NCBI GenBank assembly: GCA_945862385.1
Contig: CAMAXV010000005.1
Span: forward strand, 62,001-126,000
Direction: 5' to 3'
Length of the DNA: 64,000 nucleotides
Origin: Chitinophaga pinensis
GTDB taxonomy: Bacteria; Bacteroidota; Bacteroidia; Chitinophagales; Chitinophagaceae
Positions 6,482-33,935 of the stretch are shown one piece after another. Made by a program: the position numbers and the translations under genes. The notes below the pieces were generated by a model. That model saw nothing but the letters and a program-made list of their open reading frames with translations, was not told the origin of the DNA and ran no database searches. The stretch's first letter is position 1, and each line of letters opens with the position of its first letter.

Positions 6482-8296
6482 ATGAATATTAGAAACATAG
6501 CTATTATTGCCCACGTTGACCATGGAAAGACCACCTTGGTAGATAAGATTTTACACACTGCAAAGGTGTTCAGAGACAACCAGGATACTGGTGACCTGAT
6601 CATGGACAGCAACGATCTTGAAAGGGAAAGGGGCATCACAATCTTCAGTAAAAACGCCTCGGTTACATATAAAGATGTGAAAATCAATGTGATAGATACC
6701 CCTGGCCACGCCGACTTTGGCGGAGAGGTAGAAAGGGTATTGAAGATGGCTGATGGTGTTATATTACTGGTGGATGCTTTTGAAGGTCCGATGCCACAAA
6801 CCCGTTTTGTGTTGCAGAAAGCGTTGTCACTCAACCTGCATCCTATTGTAGTCATCAATAAGGTTGACAAGCCTAATTGTCGCCCTGATGAAGTACATGA
6901 TGCTGTTTTTGAACTCTTCTTCAACCTGGATGCCACTGAAGAGCAATTGAATTTCCCAACATTTTACGGTTCTGGAAAGAATGGCTGGTTTAACGACAGC
7001 CTGACTCCAACAACTGACATCATACCGCTGATGGATGGTATCATGAAATATGTGCCAGAGCCTAAGGTTGAAGACGGAACGATACAAATGCAGATTACTT
7101 CGCTTGATTATTCATCTTTCCTCGGCAGGATTGCCATTGGAAAAGTACAGCGTGGTACTTTGAAAGAAAGTATGCCCATCACACTCATGCAGACAGATGG
7201 CAGCATGAAAAAGCAGCGGATCAAGGAATTGTATGTGTTTGAGGGAATGGGCAAACGTAAGGTAACAGAGGTAATGGCAGGCGATCTTTGTGCTGTAGTA
7301 GGTATTGAAGATTTCAATATCGGTGATACCATTGCAGATTTCGAAAATCCAGAAGCATTGCCGGTTATCCATGTGGATGAGCCAACCATGAGCATGTTGT
7401 TCAGCATCAACAACTCTCCATTCTTTGGTCGTGATGGTAAATTTGTTACAAGCCGTCACCTGCGCGACAGGCTGATGAAGGAAACTGAAAAGAACCTGGC
7501 CCTCAGGGTTAAGGAAACAGATAGTGCAGATAGCTTCCTTGTATTCGGAAGGGGTATTCTCCACCTCGGTGTACTGATTGAAACCATGCGCAGGGAAGGA
7601 TATGAGCTCACAATTGGACAACCTCAGGTTTTGGTGAAAGAAATTGATGGCAAGAGATGTGAACCCTATGAGGTGCTGGTAATAGATGTGCCCGAAGAAT
7701 ATGCATCAAAGGCCATTGACCTGGTGAGCAGGAGAAAAGGTGAAATGACGGTGATGGAAACCAAGGGCGATATGCAGCACATTGAATTTGAAATTCCGAG
7801 TCGTGGTTTGATAGGCCTGCGTACAAATATGCTTACAAACACAGCAGGTGAGGCAGTGATGGCACACCGCTTCAATGAGTATAAACCCTGGAAAGGACCA
7901 ATCCCCGGAAGAAACAATGGTGTACTCTTAGCTAAAGAAGGTGGAAGTACAACAGCCTATTCACTCGATAAGCTTCAGGACCGCGGATTCTTCTTTGTGG
8001 ATCCGGGAGAAGAGGTGTACAAGGGAATGGTGATTGGTGAGAACAACAAACCAGGCGACCTTGTAGTTAATCCAAATGAAGGCAAGAAGCTTACAAACAT
8101 GCGTGCGAGTGGTACCGATGGTGCTGCCAGCATTGCACCGAAGCGCCTCATGACATTGGAAGAGTGTATGGAATATATCCAGCACGACGAGTGCATTGAG
8201 GTTACGCCTAATTTCATCAGGATGCGTAAATTGATCCTGGATGAAACAGAAAGAAACCGTTTGGCCAAACAAATGAAGCAAGAAGCTGTTTCATAA
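6482..8296 (+). CDS. typA: Ribosome-associated GTPase TypA/BipA
   Basis: A 604-residue translational GTPase of the EF-G/LepA class that binds the 70S ribosome and supports 50S assembly and stress or cold growth. G1 AHVDHGKTTL is near residue 10, then the switch sequence RERGITI, G3 DTPGHADFGGEV and G4 NKVD. Domain V sequence SRGLIGLRT and the TypA-specific C-terminal region are intact. Start at 6482 gives the normal family N-terminus MNIRNIAIIAH. The small membrane protein gene begins 3 nt after the stop. Confidence 0.97.
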   Translation: MNIRNIAIIAHVDHGKTTLVDKILHTAKVFRDNQDTGDLIMDSNDLERERGITIFSKNASVTYKDVKINVIDTPGHADFGGEVERVLKMADGVILLVDAFEGPMPQTRFVLQKALSLNLHPIVVINKVDKPNCRPDEVHDAVFELFFNLDATEEQLNFPTFYGSGKNGWFNDSLTPTTDIIPLMDGIMKYVPEPKVEDGTIQMQITSLDYSSFLGRIAIGKVQRGTLKESMPITLMQTDGSMKKQRIKELYVFEGMGKRKVTEVMAGDLCAVVGIEDFNIGDTIADFENPEALPVIHVDEPTMSMLFSINNSPFFGRDGKFVTSRHLRDRLMKETEKNLALRVKETDSADSFLVFGRGILHLGVLIETMRREGYELTIGQPQVLVKEIDGKRCEPYEVLVIDVPEEYASKAIDLVSRRKGEMTVMETKGDMQHIEFEIPSRGLIGLRTNMLTNTAGEAVMAHRFNEYKPWKGPIPGRNNGVLLAKEGGSTTAYSLDKLQDRGFFFVDPGEEVYKGMVIGENNKPGDLVVNPNEGKKLTNMRASGTDGAASIAPKRLMTLEECMEYIQHDECIEVTPNFIRMRKLILDETERNRLAKQMKQEAVS

Positions 8297-31450: not shown

Positions 31451-33637
31451 ATGCAAAATTTGAAAGTACTTTTTTTCCTTTTGTTTTTAACTCAATATTC
31501 CTTCTCACAATCCATTCCGAAATGGAATCCTGCTTTTGAGCAGCTTGCAGTGAAAGATTGGCTCATACAGGCTCCAGTTCAAAAAGCAGATGTATATGCT
31601 TCTCAGGATGGTAAGGATATCATCCTGTATAACGGACTGGTTAAAAGAAGTTTCAGGGTATCACCCAATCTGACCTGTTTTGATTTCAGGAATCTTTCAA
31701 GCGGACAACAACTTTTAAGGGCAGTCAGTCCAGAAGCTGTGGTAACTATCAATGGCGTGCAGTATGCAGTAGGTGGTTTAACAGGACAAAAAGAAAAGGC
31801 ATACTTCATGCCATCCTGGATCGACGGACTGAAGTCTGGTGAAACGGATTTTCAATATGCAGGTGTGGAGGTTAGCGATCTCAAGCCATTTATCAACTGG
31901 AAACGGAGAACCTGGGCTTATAACACCACGCAGCCCAAGGGCAAATTGATCAGATTTCGTTTCATTTCTTCATTGCCTCATCTGAAAGGTGTGGAAGTAG
32001 ATGTGAATTATGAATTGTACAACGGACTGCCACTTATTGTGAAATGGGTTTCTGTTAAAAACAACTCCACCAACAGGATCATCATCAACCGCATCATCAA
32101 TGAAACACTGGGTTTGGTGGAGGAAGAAAGTGCCGTTGTGGGCAGTCCGGACCAAATGAAGAAACAACATGGTTTATATGTTGAGACCAATTATGCCTTC
32201 AACAATGCCATGCGTTATGATATCAGCGACCAGACTACACACTGGAAAATCGATTCTACATACACTTCCCAGGTGAATTACAATTACCAGACGCCCTGTG
32301 TGCTGGAAGTTTATCCTGAGAAAGTGCTTGCAGTAGATCTTCCGCCCGGAGAGGTGATGAAATCGCCACGCACCCATGAACTGCTGATGGACAGCTACGA
32401 CAGGGAGCGCAGGGGTTTGATGATTCAGCAGATGTATGCTACTGTTGCACCCTGGACTACTTCCAATCCAATATTCATGCACTTAGTCAGCAGGAATGAT
32501 GATCAGGTACGGACTGCTATAGACCAGTGTGTGGCAACCGGTTATGAAGCCCTGATACTCAGTTTTGGAAGCCATTGTAATATGGAAGATACAGCAGCAT
32601 CGAATGTGGCCAGGTGGAAGGCACTCGCAGATTACGCTCACAGCAAAGGTATCCTGATAGGAAGCTACTCTTTATTCAGCAGCCGCCGGATTAATGACGA
32701 AACAGATGTTATTGACCCCAAGACAGGCAAACCCGGTGGCGCATTTTTTGGTAACGCTCCCTGCATGGGGAGTGCATGGGGTTTGAACTACCTCGAACGC
32801 CTGAAGTTTTTTATGACCGCTGCAGGCTTTGATCTTTTTGAAAATGACGGACCTTACCCCGGTGATGTTTGTGGATCAACAGTTCATCCCGGACACAAGA
32901 GCCTTGAAGATTCCCAGTGGCGCCAGATGGAGTTACAAAAAGGATTGTACCGCTGGTGTAACGAAAATGGTATTTATGTGAATGCACCAGACTGGTATTT
33001 CCTTGATGGAACACACAAGATTGCCGTGGGATACCGCGAAGTGAATTTTTCACTCAGCAGGGAACAGCAAATGATCCTAAACAGACAGAATATCCATGAT
33101 GGTACCAAGGAAAAGCTGCCTTCCATGGGATGGGGTTTTGTTCCGCTAACAAGGTATCAAGGTGGCGGACCAGAGGCAGTTCTTGAGCCACTTAAAGACC
33201 ACCTGAAGGATTATGAGCAGTTGATGGTGCAGTATTATGGTGCCGGTGTACAAGCCTGTTACAGGGGTCCGAGACTTTATGATACAGACAGTACACGCAG
33301 GCTGGTAACCAATACCGTTGCATGGTATAAGAAATACAGGGATATCCTCAATGCCCCGATGGTTCATCTCCGCAGGGCTGACGGCCGGGATTGGGATGGG
33401 TGGATGCATGTGAGTCCCACACTCAAAGACCGTGCATTTGTGTTGTTATTCAATCCCACCGGCGAAGTGTTGAAGAGGATAATCAGGTTGCCCCTTTATT
33501 ATACCGGATTGAAGGATATGGCATTGGTCAGGTTAAAAGATAAGCAAGAGCTGATGGTTCGGCCGGCAGATGACCGCAGCATTGAAATCACTGTAAACAT
33601 TCCACCGGGAGGTTATACCTGGTATGTGATTCGTTAA
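31451..33637 (+). CDS. Secreted alpha-galactosidase-like glycoside hydrolase
   Basis: 728 residues. Signal peptide (VLFFLLFLTQYSFS) then an N-terminal beta-sandwich (about 30-330) and a TIM-barrel half with YEALILSFGSHCNME, HSKGILIGSYSLFSSRRI, GFDLFENDGPYPGD and GIYVNAPDWYFLDG. The two aspartates in the last two motifs are candidate nucleophile and acid, as in clan GH-D enzymes, but the exact CAZy family is not certain. It ends with a beta domain. Located periplasmically or on the surface. Placement behind glycerate kinase and permease suggests a glycerate- or glycerol-containing glycoside. Confidence 0.75.
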   Translation: MQNLKVLFFLLFLTQYSFSQSIPKWNPAFEQLAVKDWLIQAPVQKADVYASQDGKDIILYNGLVKRSFRVSPNLTCFDFRNLSSGQQLLRAVSPEAVVTINGVQYAVGGLTGQKEKAYFMPSWIDGLKSGETDFQYAGVEVSDLKPFINWKRRTWAYNTTQPKGKLIRFRFISSLPHLKGVEVDVNYELYNGLPLIVKWVSVKNNSTNRIIINRIINETLGLVEEESAVVGSPDQMKKQHGLYVETNYAFNNAMRYDISDQTTHWKIDSTYTSQVNYNYQTPCVLEVYPEKVLAVDLPPGEVMKSPRTHELLMDSYDRERRGLMIQQMYATVAPWTTSNPIFMHLVSRNDDQVRTAIDQCVATGYEALILSFGSHCNMEDTAASNVARWKALADYAHSKGILIGSYSLFSSRRINDETDVIDPKTGKPGGAFFGNAPCMGSAWGLNYLERLKFFMTAAGFDLFENDGPYPGDVCGSTVHPGHKSLEDSQWRQMELQKGLYRWCNENGIYVNAPDWYFLDGTHKIAVGYREVNFSLSREQQMILNRQNIHDGTKEKLPSMGWGFVPLTRYQGGGPEAVLEPLKDHLKDYEQLMVQYYGAGVQACYRGPRLYDTDSTRRLVTNTVAWYKKYRDILNAPMVHLRRADGRDWDGWMHVSPTLKDRAFVLLFNPTGEVLKRIIRLPLYYTGLKDMALVRLKDKQELMVRPADDRSIEITVNIPPGGYTWYVIR

Positions 33638-33696
33638 GATTAGTAGTTTTTTTTAAAAAAAGTAATGCAGAAATAGGTTAGTTCGAATAAAGTCTA

Positions 33697-33704
33697 TAAT
33701 TTTG
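33697..33704 (+). promoter_or_regulatory. Promoter element (TAATTTTG) of the tRNA gene
   Basis: Exact TAnnTTTG ending 16 nt before the tRNA 5' end. Confidence 0.5.
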
Positions 33705-33720
33705 GTAGACAATAAAACAA

Positions 33721-33791
33721 TGTCACGTGGCCGAGGGGATAGGCAGAGGTCCACAAAACCTCCGATGGCGGTTCGACTCCGTCCGTGGCGT
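33721..33791 (+). tRNA. tRNA-Cys-like gene with anticodon ACA and C33
   Basis: A complete cloverleaf: acceptor 33721-33727 with 33784-33790 (two UG pairs), D stem GCC/GGC, anticodon stem GAGGT/ACCTC, variable CGAT, T arm with loop TTCGACT and discriminator T. The body and U73 resemble Bacteroidota tRNA-Cys, but the loop is CCACAAA rather than CTGCAAA: position 33 is C, normally an invariant U, and the anticodon is ACA instead of GCA. CCA is not encoded (TCA). It has its own promoter and terminator, so it is probably transcribed, but its function is doubtful. Confidence 0.75.
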
Positions 33792-33820
33792 CAGGAAATC
33801 AACGATTCTTTTGGGGATTG

Positions 33821-33847
33821 AAGGCTGCAAATGCAGCCTTTTTTTAT
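33821..33847 (+). terminator. Rho-independent terminator after the tRNA
   Basis: Stem AAGGCTGCA/TGCAGCCTT with a 2-4 nt loop followed by TTTTTATTT. Confidence 0.9.
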
Positions 33848-33935
33848 TTCAGCCATAAAAATATTTGGTTATGCACCTTACGATGTATTTTTAAGTCGCT
33901 ATGTTTTCAATACAAATCATTAAAATCGGTATCTG

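Follow-up and report, generated by a model that had tools for sequence, protein, structure and literature searches.

Does a tRNA-Cys-like gene that carries neither U33 nor the GCA anticodon still serve translation, or has it been kept for another purpose? This question is raised by a gene located at positions 33721 to 33791 (plus strand) of the window, i.e. the whole stretch of 64,000 nucleotides analysed here. The first-pass annotation, which described it as a tRNA-Cys-like gene with anticodon ACA and C33, left open whether it represents a silent copy, a regulatory tRNA or a tRNA with changed decoding. We found that the gene is preserved in many related species under a putative control site of sulfur genes, and it therefore probably encodes a conserved RNA with a role outside protein synthesis.

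The variant gene and its normal counterpart

ARAGORN called the gene as tRNA-Cys(aca) at 33721-33792, and the Rfam tRNA model scored 40.0 bits over 33721-33791 (gathering score 29); a whole-window Rfam scan with default filters had not picked it up. The anticodon loop, CCACAAA, is flanked by the stem strands GAGGT and ACCTC, which gives C33, A34, C35 and A36 and confirms the anticodon and the base 33 originally described. The reported U-G first pair (U1-G72) and the intact U73 were likewise found; a second U-G pair occupies positions 3:70, and U73 is followed by CAGG, so that CCA is not encoded. Compared with a decoding tRNA-Cys, the window copy therefore has C33 in place of U33, ACA in place of GCA and U1-G72 in place of G1-C72, with U73 kept. 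The gene retains a cloverleaf whose D and T arms are conserved, an assignment supported by the covariance-model score and by compensatory changes rather than by the minimum free energy; the unmodified single-strand free energy of the RNA is not special (z -0.83) and is uninformative on the fold.

The variant sequence occurs once in its own genome (3.07 Mb, 99.5% complete, 33 tRNA matches). Whether a normal tRNA-Cys(GCA) exists elsewhere in this genome, a point raised together with the first description, was settled by ARAGORN run on the fetched tRNA loci: there is one, on contig C21, with the loop CTGCAAA, G1-C72 and U73. Decoding of UGU and UGC is therefore independent of the variant gene. 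With one search pattern, at least 12 genomes of the same genus yielded a normal tRNA-Cys as well as the variant. In the variant carriers of this genus, the normal tRNA-Cys (L023 and others) has the anticodon stem GAGCT/AGCTT or one close to it, and the variant retains the GAGGT stem, like the normal tRNA-Cys of other genera.

Promoters of Bacteroidetes conform to the consensus TTTG / TAnnTTTG. A -7 box of this type, TAATTTTG (TAnnTTTG), lies at 33697-33704 on the plus strand. A T-tailed hairpin resembling an intrinsic terminator, GAAGGCTGCAAATGCAGCCTTT TTTT, spans 33820-33848 on the same strand, or 33820-33841 when delimited more narrowly. The -33 box is weak in the window genome, with a clear TTTG in most relatives. 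The 3' trailer, ahead of the hairpin (window ~33795-33815), contains a CTTTTGGG-like stretch that recurs in many copies of the genus. A short peptide encoded in this trailer was considered and rejected, as neither frames nor start codons are preserved across species (flanks inspected by eye).

Conservation within the genus and across the family

A BLAST search of the variant RNA against 80 relatives, in which base 33 was not taken into account, revealed 18 more loci of the same genus with the full RNA. U33 is absent from all 19 loci, the window included. Their loops read CCACAAA, CAACAAA, CGACAAA, CCAAAAA or CCGCAAA, together with one 8-nt loop containing an extra A; the members carry ACA or AAA anticodons, and neither the 1:72 pair nor the discriminator is fixed. 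Mean pairwise identity reaches 0.87 in the RNA body and 0.66 in the preceding 45 nt (promoter/operator), compared with 0.23-0.38 in the farther flanks. Most of the loci are syntenic, with a 728-aa protein or a neighbouring gene on one side and a DNA-alkylation-repair homologue on the other. Such conservation rules out that the variant is a sequencing error, and it leaves little likelihood for a decaying relic. In some members of the genus the variant copy was not found at the sensitivity used, and there the RNA must be dispensable.

The 728-aa protein (window 31451-33637, plus strand) is kept beside the RNA in several members of the genus, and gave no match in Pfam, NCBIfam, PADLOC or PDB sequences. 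A defence role of the neighbours was rejected, since PADLOC returned no match for three proteins, and so was a phage or plasmid origin: there was no phage match, and viral contigs did not match two patterns. One partial plasmid match was obtained, in Pedobacter (83.6% over 55 nt).

Judged by sequence, the variant RNA is a member of a tRNA-Cys paralogue class, here termed class II, which among the genomes sampled is confined to its own family (apparently Chitinophagaceae). Patterns excluding U33 matched in 13 of 396 genomes of the family and in 13 of 398 genomes of the order, the latter all within this family. A pattern blind to base 33, which required the acceptor motif GTYAYG, matched in 49 of the 396 family genomes. 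Sorted by acceptor end, these matches comprised (i) nine normal sequences (G1-C72, U73, U33), (ii) four with A1-G72, U73 and U33, and (iii) 39 of class II, and with the first two groups set aside U33 was absent in 33 of the 39.

From all searches, some of which excluded U33, we pooled 56 class II and 21 class I (normal tRNA-Cys) distinct sequences. Base 33 of class II in this pool is C in 18, A in 15, G in 14 and U in nine; base 73 is G in 30, U in 16, A in nine and C in one, and the 1:72 pair is mostly A-U. Class I has G1-C72 and U73 in 21/21 and U33 in 19/21. The class II anticodon is GCA in all members outside the variant's own genus, where it has been turned into ACA. ACA is thus specific to this genus, and the wider trait of the class is the missing U33 together with an altered acceptor end. 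Positions 2-7 of the acceptor stem take four forms in class II compared with ten in class I, a difference set in part by the search motif. In a tree of the 77 sequences a single branch parts the two classes (support 97/81), the 72 columns being few and including the class-defining bases.

In 43 class II sequences, 97.1% of the cloverleaf cells are paired and two-sided changes occur in nine of 20 pairs, a number reached by none of 500 shuffles. D and T stems are paired in all 43, and G18G19 and TTCGA are invariant in the alignment examined. Apart from 1:72, the only weak spot is the pair 31-39, closing the anticodon stem, which is broken in 12 of the 43. This pattern indicates constraint on the tRNA core and the acceptor stem, relaxed near the decoding loop. 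A silent copy, one of the options proposed at first, is contradicted by these compensatory stem changes and by a body and promoter conserved amid diverged flanks.

Operator, sulfur genes and SAM riboswitch

An operator-like inverted repeat, GTCTATAATTTTGGTAGAC, overlaps the -7 box of the window gene (33692-33710, no strand assigned); its dyad, GTCTA-N9-TRGAC, is common to sulfur genes and to class II loci of other genera. In the genus, AAGTCTATAAATTTGGTAGAC stands ahead of the RNA; within this sequence the repeat GTCTA-N9-TAGAC, 8-16 nt upstream of the RNA, covers the -7 box TAnnTTTG. In other genera the repeat may also stand immediately before the RNA (L148, L224, L245), and at other loci it heads an operon composed of a CarboxypepD_reg-like gene, a fatty-acid hydroxylase gene and the RNA, or lacking either of these two genes. 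Operons with this hydroxylase, which is of the OlsE-like kind, end with the RNA in many genera; in g1, g67, g96 and g118 the hydroxylase is not adjacent.

Of 52 class II loci, 47 have the operator no farther than 1.8 kb upstream (16 of 17 in the same genus and 31 of 35 in other genera), compared with three of 21 normal tRNA-Cys genes and none of the four A1-G72 genes; each of five control dyads was found at 0-2 loci in the same count. The operator also lies 17-40 nt upstream of normal tRNA-Cys genes (G1-C72, U33, U73) of three different genera (L196, L220, L225).

With the pattern used, the repeat occurs at only two places in the window's genome, i.e. before the variant RNA and before an O-acetylhomoserine sulfhydrylase gene, and a scan of 15 genomes for perfect palindromes yielded 22 sites, compared with two for the reversed pattern. 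O-acetylhomoserine sulfhydrylase also follows the repeat in G026 (TIGR01326, about 690 bits in both genomes). A phosphosulfolactate synthase gene is located behind or beside the repeat in G352 (TIGR03849, 267 bits; PDB 1u83), and two genomes have a homologue of free-methionine-R-sulfoxide reductase there, with 3mmh as the best PDB match. Genes for a thioredoxin-like protein, for a fatty-acid hydroxylase and for several TonB receptors occur in such positions as well. These genes are most simply read as a putative sulfur regulon. Related TonB-dependent receptor genes preceded by the operator were observed at L178, L182, L183, L185, L188 and L189; the receptors possibly take up sulfur compounds.

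The hydroxylase is missing from both g118 genomes. There, the repeat and the tRNA-like gene are separated by a SAM-I/IV riboswitch located directly before the latter (RF01725; 48.7 and 47.9 bits, gathering 41.1; L124, aptamer 7770-7865 and RNA at 7941; L123, aptamer 7848-7942 and RNA at 7967). This riboswitch, not found in the window, is a predicted and independent link, in one genus only, between the RNA and sulfur amino-acid metabolism. From the operator shared with sulfur genes and from the riboswitch of this genus we infer that transcription of class II RNAs may be nutrient-responsive. The literature searched, the coverage of which is partial, yielded no description of a tRNA gene under sulfur regulation or riboswitch control.

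Possible functions of the class II RNA

Among the options proposed for the variant, the best fit is a regulatory RNA, or one that otherwise acts off the ribosome, given the sulfur operator, the conservation and the lost decoding features. More specifically, we lean slightly towards the view that the class II RNA is a sulfur-regulon paralogue or mimic of tRNA-Cys acting off the ribosome. A putative regulator would bind the GTCTA-N9-TAGAC repeat overlapping the promoter and would most likely be released under a shortage of cysteine, methionine or SAM. The resulting transcript would then be trimmed into a tRNA-shaped RNA that retains the tRNA core (D, T and acceptor stems, G18G19 and the TTCRA T-loop) and is devoid of U33 and, in most members, of the G1-C72/U73 end of normal tRNA-Cys, and these losses lead us to expect poor decoding and a poor substrate for CysRS. 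Since U73 and GCA are major identity elements of this enzyme (PMC9976931), most class II members should indeed be poor substrates. Such an RNA would most likely occupy a tRNA-binding protein as a tRNA-Cys mimic, or function as a regulatory RNA in sulfur limitation. CysRS may be proposed as the first candidate partner, since GCA persists in all genera but the variant's own, a hint that something still depends on the anticodon; the ACA and AAA anticodons within the genus are evidence against one partner for all members. In this scheme we infer the direction of regulation and the lack of both charging and decoding, while the binding partner is a guess. The U73 still present in the window copy counts against the mimic, and five operator-type class II members keep U33, the loss of which is thus not universal. 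More tentatively, and with appreciable doubt, a sulfur-regulated tRNA-Cys mimic might operate family-wide, with the SAM riboswitch added in one genus, as a decoy or sensor on CysRS or another tRNA-binding protein, thereby tying the translation machinery to the sulfur supply.

Several other explanations have to be weighed against this mimic. It is unlikely that the RNA is charged and donates its aminoacyl group to an off-ribosome enzyme, e.g. a lipid- or peptide-modifying transferase, in the manner of the staphylococcal peptidoglycan glycyl-tRNAs. The intact tRNA core, the GCA anticodon kept in most genera and needed by CysRS, and the position of the RNA at the end of operons with the OlsE-like hydroxylase in many genera would all suit such a donor; however, most members have G73 in place of U73, on which CysRS chiefly relies for identity, there is no linked transferase gene, the hydroxylase is not adjacent in the four groups named above, and neither the T- nor the D-loop carries the changes by which the staphylococcal tRNAs avoid EF-Tu. 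We also give little credence to a missense tRNA that is charged with another amino acid and reads Cys codons, saving sulfur in limitation. Control by the sulfur operator and the SAM riboswitch would be in keeping with this, GCA and ACA both match Cys codons, and the A1-U72/G73 end is unlike that of tRNA-Cys, tRNA-Trp being the only tRNA of the window's genome in which both features are found together. Against it stand the free variation of base 33, the often broken 31-39 pair, and, in the variant's own genus, the AAA anticodons, the 8-nt loop and the lack of a fixed 1:72 pair and discriminator. Changed decoding, the last of the initial options, is disfavoured for similar reasons, namely the drift at base 33, the unpaired 31-39 and the presence of a normal tRNA-Cys(GCA).

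An ordinary extra tRNA-Cys, decoding Cys codons under sulfur shortage and tolerating bases other than U33, seems to us improbable. Sulfur control of tRNA-Cys supply is predicted from the operator on the three normal tRNA-Cys genes, some class II members keep U33, and C33 occurs in vertebrate initiator tRNA; against this, most members have lost both U73 and G1-C72, base 33 drifts freely, and ACA or AAA has arisen in one genus. Least credible is a functionless, decaying duplicate of tRNA-Cys, which we consider very improbable: there is variation within the genus in the end pair, in the loop and at base 73, and some of its members apparently miss the gene, but body and promoter have stayed alike where the flanks have diverged, the stems show compensatory changes, and the same operator recurs across genera.

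The closest described case is tRNAOther, a pseudo-tRNA of Bacillus cereus that is reported to be poorly aminoacylated and absent from polysomes and is under the control of the iron repressor Fur (PMC3399842), to which class II, known from sequence only, appears similar in outline. Both are tRNA-shaped RNAs beside the normal set, the nutrient-linked control being putative in class II, and class II shares with that type a tRNA fold, lost decoding features and a normal isoacceptor alongside. The likeness is one of description; tRNAOther combines a Trp anticodon with iron, and class II a tRNA-Cys-related body with sulfur; moreover, unlike tRNAOther, class II RNAs have their own promoter and terminator or an operon end, and are found in many genera of one family. 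The peptidoglycan-specific tRNA-Gly of Staphylococcus, with altered D and T loops, is still a good synthetase substrate (review PMC8007984). It resembles class II as an extra isoacceptor diverted from translation, which for class II is our interpretation, but in class II it is the acceptor end and the anticodon loop that have changed, with normal D and T loops. With the normal bacterial tRNA-Cys(GCA), class II shares its length, the D-arm (TGGCYGA), the T-arm and, outside the variant's own genus, the anticodon; it differs in having no G1-C72, usually no U73, no U33, and ACA in that genus.

To our knowledge, few nutrient-controlled pseudo-tRNAs of bacteria have been described, and those known to us are isolated cases. 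Class II is conserved over many genera of one family, with a defined operator and a clear sulfur axis, and the normal tRNA-Cys in the same genome provides an internal control. The long-standing question of tRNA-shaped RNAs as bacterial regulators becomes directly testable in culturable members of this family. The annotation "tRNA-Cys" can, moreover, hide a non-decoding RNA.

Two further observations concern Cys-like tRNA genes in general. Two class I genes with G1-C72 and U73 (L139, 1488-1559; L141, 1494-1565) have the loop ACGCAAT, in which base 33 is C and A32 could pair with U38. Some genomes contain closely spaced multiple Cys-like tRNA copies (L115, 143-213; L102, 1011-1083; L107, 1479-1637), among them a shortened one called as tRNA-Ser(gct) and a tandem pair.
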